Shown here: positions 7,673-35,072 of the stretch, in pieces
How the letters are laid out: the number at the start of each line of letters is the position of its first letter
How positions within the stretch are numbered: the stretch's first letter is position 1
Virus record (IMG/VR): IMGVR_UViG_3300034073_002089
Span: 1 to 35,088 of that record
DNA: 35,088 nucleotides
Origin: a virus
Direction: 5' to 3' (one strand)
Notes under the pieces: generated by a model
Database searches by the model: none
What the model saw: only the letters and a program-made list of their open reading frames with translations
Told to the model about the DNA's origin: nothing
Translations under genes and position numbers: made by a program

Positions 7673-8043
7673 GTGATTTAGCGCATTGGGATCGATGTTC
7701 GCCATACCTTGAGGCGGCGTTGCGCTTTAGCCATGGAACGCATACCATTGAAGACATACGCAAAGCGGTGATTGACAAGGCGATGCAATTCTGGCCTGGT
7801 CAGCAGTCCGCAGTCATCACTGAAGTCCACGTTTACCCGCAAAAGAAATGCCTCCATTACTTTTTGGCTGGCGGCAAACTGGAAGAACTCTCAGCGATGC
7901 GTCCAATTATTGAATCGTGGGCGCGTCACATCCAATGCGACATGATCACGTTATCCGGCAGACGAGGTTGGATTCGTTCGTTTTTGGCGGGTGAAGATTA
8001 CAAGGAACGTTGGACGGTTATGTCCAAGGAGTTATCACTATGA
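7669..8043 (+). CDS. Phage protein with GNAT-like pattern, probable virion accessory
   Basis: A 124-residue protein starting at the GTG at 7669 (GTGA overlap with the previous stop); a second GTG lies at 7673 in another frame. Residues 72-106 (GGKLEELSAMRPIIESWA, then MITLSGRRGWIRSFL) resemble a short family in podovirus tail/ejection modules sometimes called acetyltransferase-like. The pattern is strand (SAVITEVHVYPQKKCLHYFLAGG), helix (LEELSAMRPIIESWARHI), strand (DMITLSG), as in the GNAT core. The acetyl-CoA loop (RxxGxG/A) is not clearly present, so enzymatic activity is doubtful. The TGA overlaps the next gene's ATG. Confidence 0.5.
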   Translation: MSDLAHWDRCSPYLEAALRFSHGTHTIEDIRKAVIDKAMQFWPGQQSAVITEVHVYPQKKCLHYFLAGGKLEELSAMRPIIESWARHIQCDMITLSGRRGWIRSFLAGEDYKERWTVMSKELSL

Positions 8044-9224
8044 GTAAGAGCGGCGGCGGATCAACAACTCGCGTTGAACTTGATCCTGAATTCAAAACGG
8101 CAGCGCTTGACGTATACGGCAGAGCGCAACAGATCGCCAATCAGCCTTATACGACTTACCAAGGCCCGCGTATTGCGGCGCCTACGCAAGCAACACTTAC
8201 CGGATTGCAGCGCTTGGCGCAAGTTGAGCCTACTGCCGCCACAACGCTTGGCTTGCAACAGTTAGCACAAGCCGGTCAGGTTGGGCCTGGTACTGCAACC
8301 GTTGATTACGCAACATCATTGGCGATGCAACCAACCGGTATTGCGCAAAACATTGGTCAGTTTGTGAATCCATTTCAGACGCAAGTGATCAATACGGCGC
8401 TGCAAAACATTGAGATGCAACGCCAGCAACAACAACTTGGAAACTTAGCCGCCGCCACTCGCGCCCGTGCCTTTGGCGGATCGCGCCAAGGCATTGTTGA
8501 AGGATTGACGAATCAAGCCGCACTCATGGCCGCAGGCCAAACGGCTGGAAATTTGGCTTACCAGGGTTTTGGTCAAGCCGCGCAACTTGCGCAACAAGAC
8601 GTTGCGGCCCGCCAGGCGCAGGCTGCGCAACTGGCAGGATTGGGCGCACAACAACAAGCGATTCGTAGTCAACAAGCGCAGCAACTGCTTAGTGCTGGCG
8701 GTGCTGAAGATGCGTTACGCCAAGCGCAAGCGCAACAACTTATGCAAGTTGGCGGGATTGAGCAAGGCTTGCAACAACAGCAACTTGATTTGGCGTACCA
8801 AGACTTTTTACGCCAACAAGCTTACCCGTTGCAACAACTTGGCATCCTTCAGGCTGGCCTTGGGCAGTTTCCTGCGCAAAACGAGCAAGTCACATCGCAG
8901 CGCATGTCACCAGGTCAGCAGATCGGCCAGGGCGTTAGCACATTGGCGTCATTGGCTTACTTGTTTGGGTCAGACAAGCGCATGAAGGAAAACATTGATC
9001 GCATGGATTCGCCGCTTTCCCAAATTGGAAAACTTGCTGGCTATGACTACAACTATAAGGGTGATGACCAACGAACGGGCGGCGTGATGGCGCAAGACGT
9101 TCGCCGCGTTATGCCCGAAGCCGTTGTGCAAGGCGATAACGGCATGATGGCGGTGAACTACCCGAAAGTGACGGGGTTACTGGTCGAAGCGGTTAAGGAA
9201 CTTGACCGTAGAACAAGGGGTTAA
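8040..9224 (+). CDS. Gln-rich virion protein with C-terminal S74 autoprocessing chaperone
   Basis: A 394-residue protein; the start is the ATG at 8040, 8 bases after AAGGAG. Residues 1-300 are helical and extremely Gln/Ala/Leu-rich (LGNLAAATRARAFGGSRQGI, AQLAGLGAQQQAIRSQQAQQ). The last 84 residues begin SDKRMKENIDRMDSPLSQIG and end NYPKVTGLLVEAVKELDRR, the hallmark of the Peptidase_S74 intramolecular chaperone. The predicted catalytic pair is Ser311 and Lys316 (five apart, as in phage endosialidases), with cleavage expected before Ser311. S74 domains normally trimerise beta-helical tailspikes; here it caps an alpha-helical protein among the ejection genes. This suggests a trimeric helical tail or internal component. 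Confidence 0.8.
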   Translation: MSKSGGGSTTRVELDPEFKTAALDVYGRAQQIANQPYTTYQGPRIAAPTQATLTGLQRLAQVEPTAATTLGLQQLAQAGQVGPGTATVDYATSLAMQPTGIAQNIGQFVNPFQTQVINTALQNIEMQRQQQQLGNLAAATRARAFGGSRQGIVEGLTNQAALMAAGQTAGNLAYQGFGQAAQLAQQDVAARQAQAAQLAGLGAQQQAIRSQQAQQLLSAGGAEDALRQAQAQQLMQVGGIEQGLQQQQLDLAYQDFLRQQAYPLQQLGILQAGLGQFPAQNEQVTSQRMSPGQQIGQGVSTLASLAYLFGSDKRMKENIDRMDSPLSQIGKLAGYDYNYKGDDQRTGGVMAQDVRRVMPEAVVQGDNGMMAVNYPKVTGLLVEAVKELDRRTRG

Positions 9225-13888: not shown

Positions 13889-14182
13889 ATGGAACAAAAA
13901 GTGACGATTGTTGCAACGGGAACTGTAACCAGGGAAGAGAATGTCCGCTCAGAACAGGCAGACGAAACGTTTGGATTCGAGGCGATAGTGCCCAAAAAAG
14001 GTAGAACACCAAAAGCCAGCGCTGAAGTAAGCGAGCTGGAAAAGCGGCTAAACGTCGCTCTTGAGAATTTGGCCGACTGTGTTGAAACGCTCAAAGGTTT
14101 AGAAAGCTATGGACGTTTTAACGATTCAGTTGTTCGACGTCGCGCACTTGAGTGCCTAAAAAGGATTGGCGAATGGGCATAA
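13889..14182 (+). CDS. Small protein with coiled-coil C-terminus, unknown function
   Basis: A 97-residue protein; the start at ATG 13889 is set by AAAGGGA 6 bases upstream. The same frame is open to 13823, but the extra residues have no ribosome site. Residues 1-35 look like beta strands (KVTIVATGTVTREENVRSEQ). Residues 45-97 are helical with Leu heptads (AEVSELEKRLNVALENLADC, then VETLKGLESYGRF). Its end overlaps the next gene by 10 bases. An overlapping reading frame at 13810-14004 is discussed under rejected items. Confidence 0.55.
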   Translation: MEQKVTIVATGTVTREENVRSEQADETFGFEAIVPKKGRTPKASAEVSELEKRLNVALENLADCVETLKGLESYGRFNDSVVRRRALECLKRIGEWA

Positions 14183-14835
14183 AAATGATCGTGTCAACGA
14201 TCAAGCCTGATAAGGGATCGTTACACGTTTTAGCGGCAAGCATTGACGCCTATGCACCAGACATTGATCTTTGCATTGAAAACGGTAAAGGGCCAACGTT
14301 TGGTGATGACTACAACCGAGCGATTGAGCGCTTTATGTCCAAGGATGACGAAGGTGTAATCATCGCCAATGATGACATTGTGCTTACGCCTTATTCGTAT
14401 CGATTGCTGATGGAAGATGTTCAGGCGCTTGGAAAACTTTGCGGTCACAAATTGGGTCTTGTTGCAGCGCGTTCCGACTATGTAAGGCCAAACCAAAACA
14501 TTCGCGTTCCGATAGGCGATCGTGATCAGTTTGTTGGTATGCGATGGAAGAGCGAAGGAGCGGTCAGGAAAGTTGCTGTTGTATCGCCTTTGTTTGCATG
14601 GTTGCCGCGTGGCGCGTTTGAGCAAGTTCAATTCCCGCCACTAAATTGGTTTAGCGATGATGTGATGTGCGCCGATCTTGCAGAGATTGGCTTTAAGCAT
14701 TGGATCAGCCGAAGCTACATACATCACGTTGGTTCCATGACGATTGGCGTTGACATGCAATCAAATCTTGAACAATCAATGCCATGGCTTAAAGAGAACA
14801 GGCCAAATTACGTTGAAAAATGGGGGCTCGAATGA
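14173..14835 (+). CDS. Glycosyltransferase-like protein (GT-A fold) 1
   Basis: A 220-residue protein starting at the ATG at 14173, 7 bases after AAGGA. It shows the GT-A layout: first strand MIVSTIKP, helix LHVLAASIDAYAP, and GPTFGDDYNRAIERFMSKDD before the strand VIIANDDIVLTP, whose NDD takes the DxD place expected to bind a nucleotide-sugar and metal. The later PLNWFSDDVMCADLAEIGFK, then HHVGS, is a common GT2-like acceptor-side pattern with His. The gene is followed with ATGA overlap by a second glycosyltransferase. Substrate unknown; likely acts in the cytoplasm on a carrier, protein or DNA. Confidence 0.7.
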   Translation: MGIKMIVSTIKPDKGSLHVLAASIDAYAPDIDLCIENGKGPTFGDDYNRAIERFMSKDDEGVIIANDDIVLTPYSYRLLMEDVQALGKLCGHKLGLVAARSDYVRPNQNIRVPIGDRDQFVGMRWKSEGAVRKVAVVSPLFAWLPRGAFEQVQFPPLNWFSDDVMCADLAEIGFKHWISRSYIHHVGSMTIGVDMQSNLEQSMPWLKENRPNYVEKWGLE

Positions 14836-15512
14836 TTCCGATAAGAATCGTGGCGTGTACTCGCCATAACAGGAAGGATTTTGCAGGAACGCCGTTAGGC
14901 GTAACGATTCAACGTTTTTCACATTTAAGTTTTATCGAAGCGCAGTTATTTACCAACAACACCGTAGGGCTTTGCCAGCGCTATAACGAAGCGATTGAAG
15001 CCGCCAGGCATGATCCAGCGTTGCTGGTGTTTGTGCATGATGATGTTGAAATCACGGATTGGTTTTGGTATCAGCGTTTGGCGGCAGCGCTTGATGACCA
15101 CCATTTGGTAGGTCTTGCCGGGAACGCTCATCCATCGCCTGGTCAAACATCATGGGCGATTACTGATACGGAAGGCACGCTATCGGATCGCATGTCATGG
15201 GCCGGTTGCGTAGCGCGTGGCAACGGTGAGTTCATGACGAATTGGGATGTGTTTGCGTCGCCAAATCGTGAAGTGAAACTAATTGATGGTTTGTTCATGG
15301 CGGCTTACTCAAAGACGTTTCATGACAACGATATAAGGTTTGATGAGCAATTCACCTTCCATCATTACGACATGGACATTTGCCGCCAATTTACAGCTAA
15401 GGAACTGTCAATCTATGTGTCATCGATTTCCGTGATCCATCACTCGCAAGGCGTGATGGGTGCATCATGGAAAGAATCAGCGCAACGCTACTTGGATAAA
15501 TGGAAAGCATGA
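14832..15512 (+). CDS. Glycosyltransferase-like protein (GT-A fold) 2
   Basis: A 226-residue protein; start ATG 14832 (ATGA overlap). The N-terminal strand IRIVACTRH, the segment GLCQRYNEAIEAARHDPALL and strand VFVHDDVEITDW, with HDD at the DxD site, indicate a GT2-like/STELLO-type glycosyltransferase. The second half has LIDGLFMAAYS, then FDEQFTFHHYDMDIC, the usual D-x-H/Y-D acceptor motif, and VIHHSQG. It shares overall design but little identity with the gene just upstream, so the two may add successive sugars. Substrate is not predictable from sequence. Confidence 0.8.
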   Translation: MIPIRIVACTRHNRKDFAGTPLGVTIQRFSHLSFIEAQLFTNNTVGLCQRYNEAIEAARHDPALLVFVHDDVEITDWFWYQRLAAALDDHHLVGLAGNAHPSPGQTSWAITDTEGTLSDRMSWAGCVARGNGEFMTNWDVFASPNREVKLIDGLFMAAYSKTFHDNDIRFDEQFTFHHYDMDICRQFTAKELSIYVSSISVIHHSQGVMGASWKESAQRYLDKWKA

Positions 15513-15742
15513 ACATCAACAACAGCGATAAAAAAGCCGAACTGCATCCAATGCCCGTGTACATGTTGGAGGGTATGCCGTATGTGCCGCATTACATCAA
15601 GCCATACCATTGGGTTGCGCCAGGCGGCGTAACGAGGACAACGACATGGCTTGAAGAGCGGCACGCCAAGCAAATCACGCTCCCCTTGTGGATGCGCACT
15701 TGGGTGCTTGAGCGTTTCGTTGATTCGACACAAAACTTATAG
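15509..15742 (+). CDS. Small protein after glycosyltransferase pair, unknown function
   Basis: A 77-residue protein; the ATG at 15509 overlaps the stop of the glycosyltransferase (ATGA). It is rich in Pro, His and Trp (YMLEGMPYVPHYIKPYHWVAP) with a TTTWLEERHAKQITLPLW segment. No motif recognised. Tight coupling suggests it works with the glycosyltransferases or is simply part of the same operon. Confidence 0.5.
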   Translation: MNINNSDKKAELHPMPVYMLEGMPYVPHYIKPYHWVAPGGVTRTTTWLEERHAKQITLPLWMRTWVLERFVDSTQNL

Positions 15743-15771
15743 CATAATCATGGGGTTCACGAGGATGCTTT

Positions 15772-16215
15772 ATGTTTCGGATCAAGCGGGCGACAGAAAT
15801 GTCACAGAGTACCGAGCAAGCCATACGCTTTCTTCAGAAAGAATGCTTGCCATTGGACACGGTACTAAGTCCGAAAAACGGTTGGTGGTGGATCGCCTAT
15901 TGCGATGGACGGTTGGCGGGATTTGCCGCCATGCTGCAATCCAGCAAAACGCCGCAAGCGGTGTATCTAGCCAGGGCAGGTACGCTGGAAGCGTTTCGTG
16001 GCCGTGGGCTGCAAAAGAAGTTGATCCGAGAGCGTCTGAAGTTTGCCAAGGACTTGGGTATGACGCAAGCAGTCACGGATACAACAGACAATGTGGCGTC
16101 CGCCAATGCGTTGATTGCCACAGGGTTTCGGCTATTCGACCCGGACGATCCTTGGGGTTTGCCCAACACTTTGTACTGGAGAAAATCGATTGCCGTACAA
16201 AGACCCACAAGTTAG
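15772..16215 (+). CDS. GNAT-family N-acetyltransferase
   Basis: A 147-residue protein with the GNAT core: the strand WWIAYCDGRLAGFAAML (48-64), YLARAGTLEAFRGRGLQKKL (78-98) containing the acetyl-CoA loop RGRGLQKK (RxxGxG/A pattern with flanking Arg), helix LIRERLKFAKDLG, then strand AVTDTTDNVASANALIATGF typical of motif B. Acceptor unknown: small molecule, protein or amino sugar are all possible. The ATG follows GAGGATGC. The next gene begins inside its 3' end at 16190 in another frame. Confidence 0.85.
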   Translation: MFRIKRATEMSQSTEQAIRFLQKECLPLDTVLSPKNGWWWIAYCDGRLAGFAAMLQSSKTPQAVYLARAGTLEAFRGRGLQKKLIRERLKFAKDLGMTQAVTDTTDNVASANALIATGFRLFDPDDPWGLPNTLYWRKSIAVQRPTS

Positions 16216-16576
16216 AGCAGCAAAGCAAAAGATTTACGCCAGGCGGCATTACGAGAAAAACCGCGAAAAGACCCTTAAGAAAAATATCGCCTCAAAACGC
16301 GTGTTGCGTGCAAAGTGGCGAGCATTCAAAGCATCACTTCATTGCGAGCGCTGCGGCATTCAGCACGAGGCAGTTATTGACTTTCACCACGTTGACCAAA
16401 CGCCGCCAAAGCGAAACATCAACGAACTTGTGGGGCAAGGTGCGTACAGAAAAGCATTTGAGGAAATCAAAAAGTGCATTGCTGTGTGCTCAAACTGCCA
16501 TCGCATCTTGCATCACGACGAGCGCAAGCTAAAACGTAAAAAACACAAACTGAAGCACAAGAGGAAAAAGTCATGA
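16190..16576 (+). CDS. HNH endonuclease-like zinc protein
   Basis: A 128-residue basic protein. The best start is TTG 16190, set by GGAG 8 bases upstream; it gives MPYKDPQVRAAKQKIYARRH, the usual opening of this small HNH group. A longer reading from 16115 would overlap the GNAT gene further. Cys52/Cys55 (CERCG) and Cys100/Cys103 (CSNCH) form the zinc site. FHHVD (His66/67) provides the HNH core, and His108/109 lies at RILHH. The Lys-rich tail (about 20 residues) should bind DNA. It may be a packaging-associated nuclease or a free-standing homing-type nuclease. Confidence 0.82.
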   Translation: MPYKDPQVRAAKQKIYARRHYEKNREKTLKKNIASKRVLRAKWRAFKASLHCERCGIQHEAVIDFHHVDQTPPKRNINELVGQGAYRKAFEEIKKCIAVCSNCHRILHHDERKLKRKKHKLKHKRKKS

Positions 16577-17643
16577 GTCAGCATTCAGAATGGTCACCAT
16601 CAGCCGCCGAGCGATGGATAGCGTGCCCGGCATCAATCAAACTCTCACGAGGTGTGCCGCCACGCGAAGCAGGAGACGCTGCAAAGATAGGAACAGCGGT
16701 ACACGCATTGGCGGAAACGGTGATGCTGACAGGTTCAGCGCCGAATACATTTGTTGGAAAGGAATTTGAAGGTGTTGAGATTAGCGAGGAGATGGCGTCT
16801 TGGGCCGAGGTCTATACGGACTTTGCGGGCGAACTGGAAAAGCGCATGGAAAGTTCTTGCCTCATCGAAGAGCGTCTTCGCATTCCTAATTACGCTGGCG
16901 CTGATGTGTATGGGACTGCCGATCTTATTTGCTTTAACGATGTTGACTTGGTTGTTGGAGACCTTAAAACTGGTCGGATTAAGGTGGATGTTGAAGGTCC
17001 GCAACTTAAGATTTACGCGTTAGGCGCACTGCAAAAGGCACCAGCAAGCGTGAAGAACATTACGCTTGCGATCATTCAGCCAACACAGGAACCGCAGATC
17101 AGTTTGGCGTTCATGACTAAAGCCGAACTTATCGATTGGTCCGCCAATGTGTTTGAACCGGCATTGCGTGACACGCTGGCGCCATTTCCGCCAACACATG
17201 AAGGTGAGCATTGCCGCTGGTGTCCGGCCAGGTCAAAGTGCCCGGCAAAAATAGCGCGTGTTGAATCGTTTGCTGGCGTTACGCCAAAGCAAATCGATGA
17301 AGCCACGGAAGATGAATTGAACGCCATGATGAACGTAGCTGACGATGCGTTGCACACGATTGATGCCATCAAAGAGCGCGTCACAAACGCGCTGCAAGCA
17401 GGGCGTGAGTTGCAGGATTGGACGCTTGTGCCGAAGCGTGCAACGCGCAAATGGCAAAACGATGAACTGATGGCGGGATTGCTTAGTGCGCACAAAGGTG
17501 CCGTGAAAACAGTACCGATCACGCCAGCGCAGTTGGAGAAGAAATTGCCAGATGTTTATGAAGCATTCGCGGATAAGGTCACCGCCGAATCAAGTGGCTT
17601 AACACTTGGGCGCAAACCAGCGCCAAATTTGACCTCACTTTAA
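16573..17643 (+). CDS. DUF2800 Cas4-like PD-(D/E)XK nuclease
   Basis: A 356-residue predicted exonuclease. Motifs in order: N-terminal Cys18 (WIACPAS); His44 (GTAVHALAE); Asp117 (VYGTADLI); Asp130-x-Lys132 (VGDLKTGR); QxxxY at 144-148; and Cys214, Cys217, Cys223 (HCRWCPARSKCPAK). The Cys set C-n-CxxC-x5-C equals the iron-sulphur site of Cas4/AddB nucleases. This is the DUF2800 family, often found beside a phage ssDNA-binding protein as a recombination pair, as here. It is expected to resect dsDNA ends. ATGA-type overlap with the HNH gene; GAGG lies 9 bases upstream of the ATG. Confidence 0.9.
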   Translation: MSQHSEWSPSAAERWIACPASIKLSRGVPPREAGDAAKIGTAVHALAETVMLTGSAPNTFVGKEFEGVEISEEMASWAEVYTDFAGELEKRMESSCLIEERLRIPNYAGADVYGTADLICFNDVDLVVGDLKTGRIKVDVEGPQLKIYALGALQKAPASVKNITLAIIQPTQEPQISLAFMTKAELIDWSANVFEPALRDTLAPFPPTHEGEHCRWCPARSKCPAKIARVESFAGVTPKQIDEATEDELNAMMNVADDALHTIDAIKERVTNALQAGRELQDWTLVPKRATRKWQNDELMAGLLSAHKGAVKTVPITPAQLEKKLPDVYEAFADKVTAESSGLTLGRKPAPNLTSL

Positions 17644-17658
17644 CTAGGAAACTTTGAC

Positions 17659-18195
17659 ATGCTAGGACTTACAGGTGGTGGATCAGGACTTCCCTACATT
17701 CGTTTCTCGCCATCCATGAATATGTGGAGCGACAAGACGGGCCAGGAAATCCAACTCAAAAAAATGTTGTTTGACATTGATAACGTGCAAACGGGTTGGT
17801 TATTGCTCGAAGCCGGTGTGCGCGATTGGCAACCGGATCAAGAGTTAGGCAGGCAAGGACCAAAGCCAAGCGATGCGCATAAACGTGGGTTTGTGGTGCG
17901 TTTCTTTAGCCGAGAAATGGGTTGGGTTGAATGGTCATCGAATGGCGCAGGGCCGAACATGGGTTTGGAAGCGCTTTACACCTCAGCCGCCAAGGATCGC
18001 AATGCGAACGCTGGCAAGTTGCCGATCATCGAGTACGTAGGCGCTGAGGCCATGAAGGTTGGCAAGGGCAATACGCGCAAGCCCAAGTGGAACATCACTG
18101 GTTGGGCGCCAAGGCCAGCGGATGATGCTGGTGCTGCGCCCGTTGCTGCGCCTGAGCCTGTGGCCGCTGCGCCTGCTAAGGGTGAAGAGTTTTAA
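17659..18195 (+). CDS. Probable ssDNA-binding protein
   Basis: A 178-residue protein, RBS AGGAA. Residues 10-140 are beta-rich with several aromatic residues (LPYIRFSPSMNMWSDKTGQ, RGFVVRFFSREMGWVEWSSN). The C-terminus is a Pro/Ala-rich disordered tail (PADDAGAAPVAAPEPVAAAP) ending in acidic GEEF. An OB-like body plus flexible tail with an acidic-aromatic tip is the design of phage and bacterial SSBs. It follows the DUF2800 nuclease by 15 bases and ends just before a terminator. No direct family match is claimed. Confidence 0.55.
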   Translation: MLGLTGGGSGLPYIRFSPSMNMWSDKTGQEIQLKKMLFDIDNVQTGWLLLEAGVRDWQPDQELGRQGPKPSDAHKRGFVVRFFSREMGWVEWSSNGAGPNMGLEALYTSAAKDRNANAGKLPIIEYVGAEAMKVGKGNTRKPKWNITGWAPRPADDAGAAPVAAPEPVAAAPAKGEEF

Positions 18196-18215
18196 GTAAT
18201 CACTTATTCACAAAA

Positions 18216-18242
18216 CCCGGTCTTTTTAGGCCGGGATTTTTT
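18216..18242 (+). terminator. Rho-independent terminator after the SSB-like gene
   Basis: CCCGGTC (18216-18222) pairs with GGCCGGG (18229-18235), seven pairs with one G-T, around a TTTTTA loop, followed by A and six T. It separates the recombination genes from the aminotransferase/acyltransferase/primase genes. A new promoter is likely nearby, but none is convincing in the 18 bases before 18261. Confidence 0.88.
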
Positions 18243-18260
18243 GACTCTTAAGGGGATGAT

Positions 18261-18902
18261 ATGGCAGAGGGCGTTTACAAAATCACGGAATCGTTTGAAG
18301 AAAAGGTTGCCGAATACACCGGCGCACCATACTGTGTGGCGGTAGATAACTGCTGCAACGCTTTGTTTTTAGCGCTGACCTATGAACGTGTGGCGGGAAC
18401 GACGATCAGGTTGCCAGCTAGAACTTACCCAGGCGTGCCTTGCGAAGTGATTCATGCCGGTGCGAAGGTCGACTTTTATCCGGTTGAAGGCAGGGCGATT
18501 AAGGGCGCGTATCAATTAGCACCCACGCGTGTGTGGGATGCTGCGCTTTCGTTTACCTCCAACATGTACATCAAAGGCTCGCACATGTGCGTGTCGTTTA
18601 CCGGGCCTTATAAGCACTTAAAGCTAGGCAAGGGCGGTGCGATTCTTACCGATGACTATGCCGCCATGCTGTGGTTCAAGCGTGCGCGTTTCAGCGGGCG
18701 GCGCGAGTGTTCTTATCACGACGATTATTTCGACATGATCGGCTGGAACTTTTACATGATGCCGGATGTGGCAGCTCGTGGTTTATTGCTCATGAATCAA
18801 TTTTGGGATCGTGATGGCTCGCCAAAAGTGATGGAGGACATTGAGATGAGCTACCCGGATTTGTCAAAGTTTCCAATTTACGCGTTTGGGGGTGACAAAT
18901 GA
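18261..18902 (+). CDS. DegT/DnrJ-type sugar aminotransferase, short form
   Basis: A 213-residue PLP-enzyme-like protein. It resembles the large domain of DegT/DnrJ/EryC1 nucleotide-sugar aminotransferases: SFEEKVAEYTGAPYCVAVDN (11-30) with CCNALFLAL; LPARTYPGVPCEVIHAGAKV; Asp93 (VWDAALSF) for the PLP ring; Lys118 in SFTGPYKHLKLGKGGAILTD for the internal aldimine; and IGWNFYMMPDVAARGLLLMN. Full-length relatives are about 370-400 residues, so the C-terminal small domain is missing. There is no sign of a frameshift, and the next ORF begins with ATGA overlap. A keto-sugar transamination role is inferred, with the acyltransferase two genes downstream as the natural next step. RBS AAGGGGAT. Confidence 0.8.
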   Translation: MAEGVYKITESFEEKVAEYTGAPYCVAVDNCCNALFLALTYERVAGTTIRLPARTYPGVPCEVIHAGAKVDFYPVEGRAIKGAYQLAPTRVWDAALSFTSNMYIKGSHMCVSFTGPYKHLKLGKGGAILTDDYAAMLWFKRARFSGRRECSYHDDYFDMIGWNFYMMPDVAARGLLLMNQFWDRDGSPKVMEDIEMSYPDLSKFPIYAFGGDK

Positions 18903-19438
18903 GCCGTGAAGCTATGAAGCAGGCGCTGGAGGCTTTGGAAGGATTGCAAACTTGGTCAAATGGCTGGCTAAAGTTTACCGATGAAATCCAAGCACTACGC
19001 CAAGCACTTGTCGATGCCGACGACACATCGCAAAAACGTGTCGATGAAATGGTGAAAACTGAACACGACCGTGCCGTCGAGTTAGGGCAAGCGTATGAGC
19101 GTGGCTGGAATGCAGCATTAGCGCAGCGTGAACCGGTGGCGTGGATGCACACAACCGGAACAGGGCATGTGTATTTCCGCAAAAAGCCACAGGATAAAGT
19201 GTTCAACCCACAGCCTGTGTTCACATCGCCACCAAAGCGTGAATGGGTTGGGCTGACGGATGAGGAGATACAAGATTTAGGTTATCTGTCCGAAAAGTTT
19301 GATGCAAGTAATTCAGAGTGGTTTGATCGATGGGGATTTGCCAGAGCCATTGAAGCCAAGCTAAAGGAGAAGAACGGCGGTGAATATCGTAACGGGGCTA
19401 CGACTGAAAGAACCAGGCTAAAGGAGAAGAATCAATGA
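18899..19438 (+). CDS. Phage protein of unknown function with duplicated C-terminal tail
   Basis: A 179-residue protein. Residues 1-60 are helical (REAMKQALEALEGLQ, then TDEIQALRQALVDADD). Residues 75-110 carry REPVAWMHTTGTGHVYFRKK and NPQPVFTSPPKREWVGLTDE, a mosaic seen in many hypothetical phage proteins. The end repeats a short motif (KLKEKN and RLKEKN, 19 residues apart). The underlying 15-base repeat provides the ribosome site of the next gene. It sits between the aminotransferase and acyltransferase with overlaps on both sides. No enzymatic role can be given. Confidence 0.6.
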   Translation: MSREAMKQALEALEGLQTWSNGWLKFTDEIQALRQALVDADDTSQKRVDEMVKTEHDRAVELGQAYERGWNAALAQREPVAWMHTTGTGHVYFRKKPQDKVFNPQPVFTSPPKREWVGLTDEEIQDLGYLSEKFDASNSEWFDRWGFARAIEAKLKEKNGGEYRNGATTERTRLKEKNQ

Positions 19439-20091
19439 GTGGCGATCACAACATGTATCAAAAGGCAAAACGCAAAAACCAGTACATCATCTTTGGTTCA
19501 GGAGGGCTTGCCAAGGAGTTGATTGGCTACATCGAGGAAGAAGGAACGCACGAGATTGTGTGTGTTGTTTCAACGCAACCGTTTAACAATAAGCGTTATG
19601 CCGCCAAGTATCCCGTGGTGGAAAGCATCAGAGAGGGCGCGTTTCCTGGCGCTGAATTCTTGCTTGCTGTGGCGGACCCTGATGCAAAGCAAGCCATTGT
19701 TGTTAAAAACGAAGAAAGATGGGGGACGTACATACACAGCACAGCCACGGTATCGCCTTACGCGAAGATTGGCGAGGGTTGCGTTTTAGCGCCGCAAGTG
19801 ATCGTTACGGCGGATGCCTGGATCAACGATTTTGTGTTTATGAATACCAATGCAACGGTTGGGCATGACTCGGTGATTCATGGATGGACAACGATGTTTC
19901 CCAATACGGAAGTGTGCGGCGATTGCGTGATTGGCGTGGCGGTGATCATGGGCATTGGGTCTTATGTATTACCGGGTAAGCAAATAGCTAACCGCGTGAA
20001 GATTTCAGCGGGGTCGATTGTCCGCCATGACTTCAAAGGGCCGGTGCATGAAGGCATTGTGCTGCAAGGAAATCCGGCGGCGCCAAGATGA
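19435..20091 (+). CDS. NeuD/PglD-type left-handed beta-helix sugar acyltransferase
   Basis: A 218-residue protein in two domains. Residues 14-95 are Rossmann-like (QYIIFGSGGLAKELIGYIEE, LLAVADPDAKQ) and would bind the UDP-sugar. Residues 98-218 are hexapeptide repeats of the left-handed beta-helix (STATVSPYAKIGEGCVLAPQ, FVFMNTNATVGHDSVIHGW, GVAVIMGIGSYVLPGKQIAN). The His in VGHD is the expected general base. This is the NeuD/PglD design, which acetylates an amino sugar (or sialic acid) from acetyl-CoA. The DegT-type aminotransferase two genes upstream gives a matched pair, as in PglE-PglD. AAAGGAG is 9 bases upstream of the ATG. Confidence 0.88.
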   Translation: MSGDHNMYQKAKRKNQYIIFGSGGLAKELIGYIEEEGTHEIVCVVSTQPFNNKRYAAKYPVVESIREGAFPGAEFLLAVADPDAKQAIVVKNEERWGTYIHSTATVSPYAKIGEGCVLAPQVIVTADAWINDFVFMNTNATVGHDSVIHGWTTMFPNTEVCGDCVIGVAVIMGIGSYVLPGKQIANRVKISAGSIVRHDFKGPVHEGIVLQGNPAAPR

Positions 20092-23922: not shown

Positions 23923-24006
23923 ATGAAGTCCAGCACAACAACATTGATCATTGGCGGTGCCGCATTCGGCGCGTTGTATGCACTGATGATTTGGGTGGCG
24001 TTATGA
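23923..24006 (+). CDS. 27-residue membrane peptide coupled to serine recombinase
   Basis: ATG at 23923 with AGGAAA 5 bases upstream; the peptide is MKSSTTTLIIGGAAFGALYA followed by LMIWVAL, almost entirely one membrane helix with a Lys at the N-terminus. Its TGA overlaps the recombinase ATG (ATGA at 24003-24006), so its translation probably sets recombinase expression. It could be a functional micro-protein or a leader peptide. No family can be given at this length. Confidence 0.5.
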   Translation: MKSSTTTLIIGGAAFGALYALMIWVAL

Positions 24007-24659
24007 ATTACGGTTATTTGCGCGTAAGCACTGACGAGCAGGTCAATGGCACAAGCCTTGATACGCAACGCAGGGAAGTGACCGGCAACGCGTTAACGCA
24101 TGGATTGACGGTTGATCGGTTTATTGAGGATGCCGGAGTTTCAGGGCATTTGAATTTTCTTGATCGATTGGCGGCAAACGGTGTAACGCCACAACCTGGT
24201 GATGTGATCATTGTGGCAAAACTGGATCGGTTTAGCCGCAACTCGATGGATACGCTGAATACCGTTCATGCGTTTAAGGAGCGCGGTATTCGTTTGATCA
24301 TCAACGGGCATGGCGATGTGACCGATGAGAAGAATATTTATGGGCAGTTGATGCTTGAGATTATGGCGGCATTTGCTACGCACGAGCGGCGCGTGATTAA
24401 GGACCGTCAGCGCGTAGGCCAGGCGGCGAAGCGTCAGGCAGGCGGGCATGTTGGTGGATTGCCGCCTTTTGGGTATCGCGTTGTGGGTGCTGGCAAGGCA
24501 GCAACCCTTGAGCCTGTTGCCGAGCAGCAAGCCGCCATTGCTACGATCAAAGCGTTGAAGGGGTCCATGTCATTGCGCCAGATTGCCGGTGAAGTGATGA
24601 AATTGCATGGTGTGACGATTACGCACGCTGGCGTTGCAAAGGTGCTTGGCCGTGAATGA
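24003..24659 (+). CDS. Small serine recombinase (resolvase/invertase family)
   Basis: A 218-residue site-specific recombinase. Resolvase domain: YLRVSTDEQ with nucleophile Ser9, then SLDTQRRE, AKLDRFSRN (Arg76, Arg79), and GQLMLEIMAAFATHERRVIK (helix E region). A short second part (GGLPPFGYRVVGAGKAATLE, then SLRQIAGEVMKLHGVTITHA) resembles the start of the large-serine-recombinase domain followed by a small helix-turn-helix, far shorter than phage integrases (450+ residues). It might resolve genome multimers or invert a segment; no obvious crossover repeat was seen beside a fibre gene. Its position between terS and terL is unusual. It overlaps terL by 8 bases. Confidence 0.88.
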   Translation: MNYGYLRVSTDEQVNGTSLDTQRREVTGNALTHGLTVDRFIEDAGVSGHLNFLDRLAANGVTPQPGDVIIVAKLDRFSRNSMDTLNTVHAFKERGIRLIINGHGDVTDEKNIYGQLMLEIMAAFATHERRVIKDRQRVGQAAKRQAGGHVGGLPPFGYRVVGAGKAATLEPVAEQQAAIATIKALKGSMSLRQIAGEVMKLHGVTITHAGVAKVLGRE

Positions 24660-27001: not shown

Positions 27002-27180
27002 ACCTGAACGATATGGCGAGAAAAGCTTGGGTGAATGGTTTGCTCGAAAACTTTCCACGAGGCGAGTACGAAAAGCTGCAATGGGAAGTGCTTGAAGAGA
27101 TGATGATCGAACTTGAGCGCCAAACGCGTGAACTGGTGCGGATTGCCGAGCTTGAGCGTAAGCGTTGGGGTAAGCAATGA
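26998..27180 (+). CDS. Small coiled-coil protein, unknown function
   Basis: A 60-residue, highly charged, wholly helical protein (MNLNDMARKAWVNGLLENFP, then EVLEEMMIELERQTRELVRI). Both ends overlap neighbours by the ATGA arrangement. No family recognised; it could be a small partner protein. Confidence 0.5.
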   Translation: MNLNDMARKAWVNGLLENFPRGEYEKLQWEVLEEMMIELERQTRELVRIAELERKRWGKQ

Positions 27181-28115
27181 GAACCGTAACGATTCTTGTT
27201 CCAGCCTTTAAGTCCAAGCACCTGTACACCACGCTTGCCAGCATTGACGCGCAGACTTACCCGAAAATTCAAGTGATCATTGGCAACCATTGCCCGGATG
27301 ATGAAGAGCATCACATGATCAATGACATAGCGCAATGCTATGACTTTGAAGTCATTGACACGCATTTGATTTGTCCTGGCGATCAAGTGGCGCATTACGC
27401 GTACCTTTGGAAGAAGGCCCAATCGGACCTGGTGCGGTTTGTGTATGACGATGATGTGATTTATCCATCATCAACGTCCTACCTGGTTGATTTGGCGGAC
27501 CACCACCGCGATGCAACCATGTTTTGGCATCAGCGCCATTGGATCAACGACGAAGGGCGATTCCTTCGTGCGCCAGGCTTGATCAGTCAAGATGAACTCA
27601 TTAAGTCATCACGCGAAAACGTGCTGCGATTGATGGCAATGCACAAGAACTTCATAGGCGAGCCTTCGTTTGTGATGATGGATCGTTCCAAGTGCGCATT
27701 CACCATGACCTATTCGCCCCTTGGCGAGCTGGCACCAAGGCACTATTTGGGTGACGTGACCTGGTACTTGGAAGCCACGCGACACGGGCCAGCGGTAGGC
27801 GGTGGGGCGCACTTGGGGGCGTTTCGCTTGCACGCTAACCAAGACTCCAATAAGGACAACCCGCGACACACATTGGGGATTGTCGATTGGGAAATGTTTA
27901 TGCGCTATGAATACTTTGGCGGCAACATCAACCGCGTAACCGCAGAGGATTGGGGGCGTACGATCTTGCAAACCTATTGGGCTGAGATGGATCGCAGACC
28001 GCCATTGCGTTTATTTCACTCACGCCTGTCAGCAGATATGGCGTTTAACAAACTCGCCAGCATGAGCGGTTTCCTTGAGGATTACCACGCTTTGCGCATG
28101 AATCTTGCGCATTGA
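27177..28115 (+). CDS. Family 2-like glycosyltransferase 3
   Basis: A 312-residue GT-A enzyme. TVTILVPAFKSKHLYTTLAS with IDAQTYPKIQVIIGNHCPDD is a typical GT2 first half. VRFVYDDDVIYP carries the DxD metal/sugar-nucleotide site at about residue 86-88. The second part has GEPSFVMMDR and HYLGDVTWYLEATRHGPAVG, which includes the D-x-x-W-x-L acceptor-side motif, and AFRLHANQDSN. It is the largest and most typical glycosyltransferase here. It has no membrane segment, so it acts in the cytoplasm. It follows a small coiled-coil gene with ATGA overlap and precedes the head genes. Substrate unknown. Confidence 0.85.
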   Translation: MRTVTILVPAFKSKHLYTTLASIDAQTYPKIQVIIGNHCPDDEEHHMINDIAQCYDFEVIDTHLICPGDQVAHYAYLWKKAQSDLVRFVYDDDVIYPSSTSYLVDLADHHRDATMFWHQRHWINDEGRFLRAPGLISQDELIKSSRENVLRLMAMHKNFIGEPSFVMMDRSKCAFTMTYSPLGELAPRHYLGDVTWYLEATRHGPAVGGGAHLGAFRLHANQDSNKDNPRHTLGIVDWEMFMRYEYFGGNINRVTAEDWGRTILQTYWAEMDRRPPLRLFHSRLSADMAFNKLASMSGFLEDYHALRMNLAH

Positions 28116-34041: not shown

Positions 34042-34362
34042 ATGGAATCAAAACTTTTCGAGCATGATCCACTTCTTGGCCTAACGCGCATTTGGCACTA
34101 TGACGAGGCTACAGACACAGCGGTGATTGAAACGATTCAAGATGCAACGCCCATTGTTGAAACCAACAAAGCAGAGTTCGCCGCCATCGACGAACGCGCC
34201 AGGTGGGGCGGTGAAGGTCTTGGTTTACGAGTTGCATCCATCCCCATGAACATTTACATGGACTTGGTGAGCAAGGGCATCACGCGCACAGAAAAAGATT
34301 TTAAGAAGTGGCTTAATGATCCCGATAACCGATTTTTCAGGACTCGACCAGGAAGGGTGTGA
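34042..34362 (+). CDS. Conserved phage protein after capsid, probable head-tail accessory
   Basis: A 106-residue protein. SKLFEHDPLLGLTRIWHYDE, TDTAVIETIQDATPIVETNK, RWGGEGLGLRVASIPMNIYM and the closing KKWLNDPDNRFFRTRPGRV are strongly conserved in phages of this kind, where the gene lies after the major capsid gene. Probably a connector or head-completion factor; role unproven. The ATG comes 2 bases after the T-run of the terminator, and no Shine-Dalgarno sequence is available outside the stem, so it is presumably translated inefficiently or from a different mRNA. Confidence 0.65.
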   Translation: MESKLFEHDPLLGLTRIWHYDEATDTAVIETIQDATPIVETNKAEFAAIDERARWGGEGLGLRVASIPMNIYMDLVSKGITRTEKDFKKWLNDPDNRFFRTRPGRV

Positions 34363-35072
34363 TGGAAACCAAACGATTGATTAGTGTATGCGTCCCTGCG
34401 AGGGACGAAGTGCATTCAGACTTTGCATTTGATCTTGTGAACGCTGTGGCGTTTCACGTTGCGCATCATCCGCATGACGTGGTGAATGTGAACATCAGCA
34501 AGGGAACATTGCTTGTAAGCCAGCGTTCAGAATTGGTGATGACCGCCATGGAAAACAACGCTGACGTGGTGCTGTTTATTGATAGCGATATGCGCTTTCC
34601 GCAGGACACCATCAAGCAATTGCTTGACCGTGACTTGTTAGTGGTTGCCGCCAACTGCCCGCGCAGGCGAATGCCAGTGGGGCCAACGGCTGCGAACTAT
34701 GATCCAGAAACGCAGCGCAAGGTTCCTGTATATACAGGTGAGCACGACACGGGCGTTGAGCAAGTTGACGCGGTTGGAACGGGCGTCATGATGATTGACA
34801 CGAACGTGTTTCGCGCTATTGAGATGCCTTGGTTTGCTACGCCATGGGATGTGGCGGCAAAAGGTTACATGGGCGAAGACATTTATTTTTGCAAGTTATT
34901 GCGCGACAATGAGATTCCGTTGTATATTGATCATGACCTGTCCAAGCACATTGGACATATAGGAACCTGGGAATACAAGCATCAGCACACCTGGGCAATC
35001 CGTCCGCAAGAGGATGCTTATCGAGCATCTGTCGGTCTTAAAACCGAACTTCGCAAAAAGGACGCTGCCTAA
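34362..35072 (+). CDS. Glycosyltransferase-like protein (GT-A fold) 4, within the virion operon
   Basis: A 236-residue protein; ATG 34362 overlaps the previous stop (TGATG) and has GGAAGGG 4 bases upstream. ISVCVPARDEVHSDFAFDLV, VNISKGTLLVSQRSELVMTA and VLFIDSDMRFPQDTIKQLLD (DxD-type DSD at about residue 73) define a GT-A fold. VDAVGTGVMMIDTNVFRAIE and GEDIYFCKLLRDNEIPLYID with HIGHIGTWEY complete the acceptor and C-terminal His motifs. Its place between capsid-accessory and adaptor genes makes it a candidate for glycosylating virion proteins. The gene crosses the window junction; its 3' end is repeated at 1-77. Confidence 0.82.
   Translation: METKRLISVCVPARDEVHSDFAFDLVNAVAFHVAHHPHDVVNVNISKGTLLVSQRSELVMTAMENNADVVLFIDSDMRFPQDTIKQLLDRDLLVVAANCPRRRMPVGPTAANYDPETQRKVPVYTGEHDTGVEQVDAVGTGVMMIDTNVFRAIEMPWFATPWDVAAKGYMGEDIYFCKLLRDNEIPLYIDHDLSKHIGHIGTWEYKHQHTWAIRPQEDAYRASVGLKTELRKKDAA

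Follow-up and report, generated by a model that had tools for sequence, protein, structure and literature searches.

The window analysed here, the whole 35,088-base stretch of viral DNA presented above, is the complete record of a phage with a 93-bp direct terminal repeat at its ends. It encodes a half-length protein of the DegT family, which we call mini-DegT, a NeuD-type hexapeptide acyltransferase (NeuD) and four putative glycosyltransferases (GT1 to GT4). We propose, with a probability of about 0.6, that mini-DegT and NeuD form a pair resembling PerA and PerB, which would convert a keto sugar made by the host into an N-acyl 4-amino-4,6-dideoxyhexose destined for a surface glycan or the virion. 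Our comparisons suggest that viruses have stripped a sugar aminotransferase to its essentials and employ it broadly in the production of an amino sugar. The pair offers a concrete candidate for the study of the sugars with which phages furnish their virions or the surfaces of their hosts, and mini-DegT provides a minimal scaffold for the enzymology of pyridoxal phosphate (PLP).

A half-length DegT protein with invariant PLP residues

Family scans were made with Pfam, PHROGs and NCBIfam, and genomic context was taken from sister phage records, an annotated phage collection (50,697 records) and 84,980 cellular genomes. Mini-DegT matches PF01041 with an expectation value (E) of 2.8e-15 and a score of 56.8 bits, compared with a curated cut-off of 19.8, and in the NCBIfam scan LegC and PseC rank first, with weak scores. 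A profile search of the PDB places 9bgp first (3e-17) and the perosamine synthetase 3bn1 second (2.4e-16). The AlphaFold2 (AF2) model of mini-DegT has a predicted local distance difference test score (pLDDT) of 95.7 and a predicted template modelling score (pTM) of 0.92; its best PDB match in Foldseek is again the GDP-perosamine synthase 3bn1 (1.9e-10; TM 0.66 by query length), and the top eight PDB fold matches are all GDP-perosamine synthases. PerA/RfbE (3bn1, 3dr7; PF01041) is the nearest solved fold. Its PLP lysine and aspartate align with those of mini-DegT, and the two proteins have the N-terminal FE...TG.y...TnAL and GG motifs in common.

We aligned 65 diverse mini-DegT homologues of one length class. 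The lysine and the aspartate are the same in every one of them (Table 1), as are Ser112, Gly125 and Gly126, and Lys118 aligns with the corresponding lysine of full-length DegT proteins as well as with that of 3bn1. Fold-type-I sugar aminotransferases are two-domain proteins of about 380 residues, and solved DegT members have some 360-440 residues, compared with 213 in mini-DegT. The half length is seen across the whole mini-DegT clade, in place of the two-domain architecture of ~370-390 amino acids with a C-terminal small domain. Mini-DegT thus belongs to the DegT superfamily by its sequence and its PLP residues but departs from it in domain architecture. The half length is a point absent from the preliminary description of this DNA, which was drawn up from the sequence.

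Coupling of mini-DegT to a PerB-like acyltransferase

NeuD matches TIGR03570 (NeuD/PglB/VioB) at 1.3e-41 over residues 17-215, with a score of 142.4, slightly below the curated cut-off of 160.8, and it combines a left-handed beta-helix (Hexapep) with a PglD-like N-terminal domain, the PglD_N match (0.0084) lying below the Pfam cut-off. The best PDB match is the GDP-perosamine N-acetyltransferase PerB (4ea7), a distant relative (5.1e-16 over residues 18-202), followed by VioB and PglB/PglD-type enzymes. PerB, a member of the NeuD/PglD/VioB family, is like NeuD of the window in its length, its PglD-like N-terminal domain, its beta-helix, its catalytic histidine and the position of its gene next to that of an aminotransferase.

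The two genes are also linked well beyond this phage group. A hexapeptide acyltransferase gene adjoins mini-DegT in 32 of 57 unrelated viral lineages, compared with 1.5 expected under random placement and a maximum of 8 in 2000 trials, and in 19 of those lineages the two genes overlap by exactly 4 nucleotides (nt). The acyltransferase profile of this test was partly built from the neighbours themselves, and the test was repeated with NeuD of the window as sole query; the genes were then adjacent in 25 of the 57 lineages (random placement 0.9, maximum 6). In the annotated phage collection, mini-DegT is also present in five of the six records that have a NeuD relative. The link between the aminotransferase and the acyltransferase is strong, and their adjacency is far beyond chance. 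The preliminary description had read the two genes as a two-step route after the logic of PglE-PglD or PerA-PerB, and that idea is supported by the invariant PLP residues, by PerA as the nearest fold, by PerB as the nearest solved relative of NeuD and by the adjacency of the genes.

Four consecutive genes of the window overlap, each with the next, by 4 nt: mini-DegT, a small and variable open reading frame (ORF) named O179, NeuD and a primase gene. The mini-DegT-NeuD distance ranges from -4 to 1382 nt among the sister phages, two of which (L004, L027) have no O179 and show a direct 4-nt overlap of mini-DegT with NeuD. We considered whether O179 might be the missing half of a split aminotransferase and rejected this idea: it is unrelated, variable, and multi-copy or absent in the sisters. 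The O179 family varies fast, with 0-3 copies between mini-DegT and NeuD; a relative occurs in the phage MW202879 (34220-34675), and others precede the GT1 homologues of another group of phages (L252-L298). O179 has the look of a phage gene that is mobile or undergoing diversification.

In comparisons with sister phages, the median ratio of nonsynonymous to synonymous substitution rates (dN/dS) is 0.041 for mini-DegT, 0.049 for NeuD, 0.096 for GT1 and 0.087 for GT2; with the same sisters, the gene at 17659-18195 gives 0.044 and the exonuclease gene 0.097. The four genes tested are under purifying selection, and the six-gene set is no chance ORF pattern.

Proposed pathway

We infer the catalysis, the GDP (guanosine diphosphate) nucleotide, the host origin of the keto sugar, the use of the product by a glycosyltransferase and the final target as follows. 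The substrate would be a nucleoside diphosphate (NDP)-4-keto-6-deoxyhexose made by the host, most likely GDP-4-keto-6-deoxy-D-mannose from the host Gmd. Mini-DegT would carry out its PLP-dependent 4-amination, and NeuD would acylate the new amino group to give an NDP-4-acylamino-4,6-dideoxyhexose (GDP-N-acyl-perosamine), which a glycosyltransferase encoded by the phage or the host would attach to a surface glycan or to the virion. A GDP-perosamine-type product is probable in view of the PerA fold, the PerB-like acyltransferase and the Gmd neighbours of mini-DegT elsewhere, all of them indirect pointers. The keto sugar would have to come from the host, because no 4,6-dehydratase was detected among the ORFs of the window.

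As for the target, the positions of GT3, between the terminase and portal genes, and of GT4, immediately after the capsid genes, would fit virion decoration. Modification of the host surface with superinfection exclusion would fit equally well, by analogy with cyanophages, for whose clusters for the modification of lipopolysaccharide or capsule a role in reshaping the surface of the host and preventing superinfection has been proposed (PMC7824862). Those clusters resemble the window in combining phage-borne glycosyltransferases with sugar-nucleotide genes; they differ in belonging to jumbo or T4-like genomes, compared with a 35-kb phage here, and the text of that review names no aminotransferase or amino-sugar route (PMC7824862).

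A further parallel is found in Flavobacterium phage immuto (NC_055915), whose laboratory host is Flavobacterium sp. LMO8. Its mini-DegT, 66% identical to that of the window, overlaps a downstream PglD-like gene by 4 nt, and the pair lies within a run of glycosyltransferase genes. However, immuto has a genome of 160 kb, and its large cluster also contains an epimerase, methyltransferases and a full-length DegT, whereas the set of the window is split among other genes.

Distribution and neighbourhood of mini-DegT

Relatives of mini-DegT are encoded by at least 590 contigs of viruses, compared with 43 loci in the 84,980 cellular genomes, many of these loci being metagenome-assembled and possibly phage contigs. 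Only 7 of the 50,697 annotated phage records have the gene (four records of Flavobacterium phage immuto, one Synechococcus phage and two huge phages). The preliminary description had called such a gene set rare, which is right for annotated phages and wrong for environmental viruses; the production of an unusual amino sugar by an unusually small enzyme appears to be common among viruses. Glycosyltransferases of phages and perosamine-synthetase annotations in viruses have been reported before (PMC8226683). The open-access literature that we searched yielded no account of a DegT of half length in phages or of a mostly viral clade coupled to an N-acyltransferase.

In a maximum-likelihood tree, the 65 mini-DegT sequences are separated from 14 full-length DegT proteins of the same loci with a support of 100/100. 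Viral and cellular mini-DegT sequences are interleaved, requiring at least seven changes, which suggests repeated transfer or the presence of viral contigs within cellular assemblies. Two viral contigs have two mini-DegT genes each: L043 (5986-6627 and 11436-12026), whose copies are 49% and 31% identical to mini-DegT of the window and fall in two deep branches of the tree, and L110 (6605-7240 and 8001-8636).

Mini-DegT is tied to glycan synthesis by its neighbouring genes and by a natural fusion. In 51 diverse loci, the gene directly downstream encodes a hexapeptide protein (13 loci), a Gmd-like dehydratase (9), a WbqC-family protein (4), a fucosyltransferase-like GT11 protein (2) or others, while GT2, methyltransferases including FkbM, hexapeptide proteins and formyltransferases are found directly upstream. 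The fusion, present in two contigs (L100, L101), is a protein of ~870 amino acids in which mini-DegT forms one chain with a group-1 glycosyltransferase and an FkbM methyltransferase. The four cellular dehydratase neighbours that were tested (320-324 amino acids) all have GDP-mannose 4,6-dehydratase as their best match (1e-100 to 1e-108). WbqC, in its four loci, may be an alternative N-modifying partner. In the Synechococcus phage S-SCSM2R (L078), mini-DegT is annotated as 3-amino-5-hydroxybenzoic acid synthase, and the cluster around it, with at least four glycosyltransferases, radical-SAM proteins, 2-oxoglutarate oxygenases and an inosamine amidinotransferase, suggests an elaborate sugar or secondary metabolite.

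The glycosyltransferases and the six-gene set

The six genes total 4,329 nt, or 12.3% of the record. All of them exist as ORFs, the coordinates first proposed for them being internal starts or a few bases off (Table 1).

Table 1. Genes of the window discussed in the text and the codons and motifs that bear on their predicted functions
Feature	Position	Strand	Description
GT1	14152..14835 (start 14152 or 14173)	+	GT-A-fold glycosyltransferase (predicted); NDD metal motif, residues 73-75
GT2	14820..15512 (start 14820 or 14832)	+	Predicted GT-A glycosyltransferase, Glyco_tranf_2_5 (PF13712, 4.9e-13); HDD motif, residues 73-75
mini-DegT	18261..18902	+	DegT/PerA-type PLP fold-type-I protein of 213 amino acids, predicted sugar aminotransferase
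Asp93 codon (V-W-D-A-A)	18537..18539	+	Aligns with the DegT aspartate binding PLP N1; invariant, 65/65
Lys118 codon (SF-TGPYK-HLKLGKGG)	18612..18614	+	Aligns with the PLP Schiff-base lysine; invariant, 65/65
G-W-N-F-Y motif, residues 161-165	18741..18755	+	Counterpart of DegT GyNyR
O179	18899..19438	+	Variable small ORF between mini-DegT and NeuD, 4-nt overlap with each
NeuD	19435..20091	+	Predicted NeuD/PglD/PerB-type hexapeptide sugar N-acyltransferase, 218 amino acids; Hexapep, 7.4e-10
His144 codon (VGHDS)	19864..19866	+	Aligns with the catalytic His of PerB/PglD; Asn in mutant entry 4eaa
GT3	27177..28115	+	Predicted family-2 glycosyltransferase (PF00535, 1.8e-8); between terminase and portal genes
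GT4	34359..35072	+	Predicted Anp1-like / phrog_1574 glycosyltransferase downstream of the major capsid gene

Matches to curated families are significant for GT2, GT3 and DegT, and for the acyltransferase through Hexapep. GT4 is weaker, its Anp1 match (1.6e-5; 24.9 bits) lying below the Pfam cut-off of 28.8, with further matches to phrog_1574 (2.9e-13) and phrog_34859 (9.6e-5). GT1 has no family match in Pfam, PHROGs or NCBIfam and is a glycosyltransferase by predicted fold only: its AF2 model, of middling confidence (pLDDT 79.5; pTM 0.82), gives 88 Foldseek matches at E<=1e-3, mostly of the GT-A fold, including UDP-bound majastridin and N-acetylglucosaminyltransferase I, and the NDD motif, of the DxD type, is invariant across 21 homologues. 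A PDB sequence search gave no match for any of the four glycosyltransferases. GT1, which has 136 viral homologues, and GT2 are kept side by side in sister phages, and a comparison of their profiles gave no significant match (E 0.053).

The portal, scaffold and major capsid proteins of the window match phrog_1216, phrog_3927 and phrog_1328, respectively. Within the annotated phage collection, MW202879 is the closest relative; its main structural genes are ~46-66% identical to those of the window, but a search of it for the six genes gave no match to any. The six are therefore accessory genes of this phage group. GT4 sits at an insertion point, because the homologues of its flanking regions (34042-34362 and 80-706 of the window) adjoin each other in MW202879, where GT4 is absent at the syntenic place. 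Among the sister phages, all six genes are conserved, with synteny kept where it was tested; GT3 and GT4 are each present in seven of eight sister records, at 84-99% identity.

Alternative explanations

Several observations weigh against the pathway proposed above. Compared with PerA/RfbE (~370 amino acids), mini-DegT has no C-terminal small domain in the alignment with full-length DegT proteins, and the segment from its third strand to the PLP aspartate (strand 4 and helices) has shrunk to ~10 residues. Two active-site motifs are changed as well: the arginine of GyNyR is replaced by tyrosine in 63 of the 65 homologues, the asparagine being kept in 52 and replaced by histidine in 13 (clade form GWN-[FM]-Y), and throughout the clade G-[KR]-GG stands in place of GEGG, with lysine or arginine for glutamate. 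The activity or the substrate of mini-DegT may therefore differ from those of PerA. The tentative GDP assignment draws on similarities of fold and of neighbouring genes. The Gmd neighbours lie in cellular operons, with none in the phage of the window, which lacks a detectable dehydratase gene, and in the majority of mini-DegT loci no dehydratase was identified next to the gene. Moreover, the Gmd matches fall below the NCBIfam equivalog cut-off, as the NeuD match does for its subfamily. The missing domain, the reduced segment and the two changed motifs would suit a PLP enzyme that, having lost its lid domain, acts on a larger or different acceptor, such as a keto sugar linked to a lipid or polymer, or catalyses another PLP reaction. 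The separation of the clade from full-length DegT proteins and the coexistence of both forms in 14 of 193 mini-DegT loci also speak for such a change. We nevertheless consider it rather unlikely, since the adjacent PglD/PerB-type acyltransferase and the Gmd genes belong to nucleotide-sugar pathways, and LegC, of a separate pathway, is the best match of both full-length DegT neighbours from cellular loci that were tested. A more specific form, in which the lidless, chiefly viral enzyme of ~200 amino acids uses an open active site to aminate keto sugars attached to lipids, glycans or proteins instead of free nucleotide sugars, would be a long shot. At the other extreme, the half length might mark a decayed or truncated remnant without function. 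We give this almost no credence: conservation of length, the low dN/dS and the invariant catalytic residues rule out a pseudogene or a truncation artefact, the predicted fold is well packed, and the relatives in viral contigs form one clade, with the same length class in those that were extracted.

The preliminary description had placed all six genes in one pathway, and a dedicated route that builds and transfers a single glycan would agree with their joint conservation in the sister phages and with the lack of a match to any of them in MW202879. The evidence does not support it, and we regard it as doubtful. A second set of viral contigs carries relatives of GT1 that are 38-47% identical to it; in the 14 records of this set that were searched, which may be fragments, neither mini-DegT nor PglD nor GT2 was detected, while positive controls in a matching search were. 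This argues that GT1 does not require this amino sugar. Distant homologues of GT2 likewise occur in contigs without a detected mini-DegT, and GT3 and GT4 are found among the structural genes, a long way from the mini-DegT/NeuD pair. The sugar might instead be attached to bases of the phage DNA, as in phages with glycosylated hydroxymethylcytosine, since glycosyltransferases together with a sugar-making gene also occur in DNA-modifying phages such as Thanatos (PMC12838424), the base modification of which is a pentose according to a later Thanatos paper. However, Thanatos encodes a hydroxymethyltransferase of the kind that primes the base (PMC12838424), whereas the Pfam and PHROGs scans of the window, which covered the longer ORFs and excluded some of fewer than 130 amino acids, revealed no deoxycytidine monophosphate (dCMP) hydroxymethylase, thymidylate-synthase homologue, TET/JBP protein or base kinase. 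DNA modification is very improbable, and DNA is the least likely of the three targets offered in the preliminary description (virion, DNA or host surface), because no synthase of a primed base was found in these scans.

Other genes of the window

Between GT2 and mini-DegT, a gene for a GNAT acetyltransferase (15772-16215) overlaps at its 3' end, by ~100 nt, an HNH-like ORF (16115-16576); the pair is absent from a few sister phages (L003, L005) and kept in most. The protein encoded at 8010-9224 is tail-fibre-like, with a C-terminal Peptidase_S74 endosialidase chaperone domain, and the stretch preceding this domain resembles a DNA-ejection protein. A serine recombinase gene (23991-24659; phrog_95 / DNA invertase) overlaps the gene for the terminase large subunit and is also present in MW202879, where it is annotated as 'gamma delta resolvase'.

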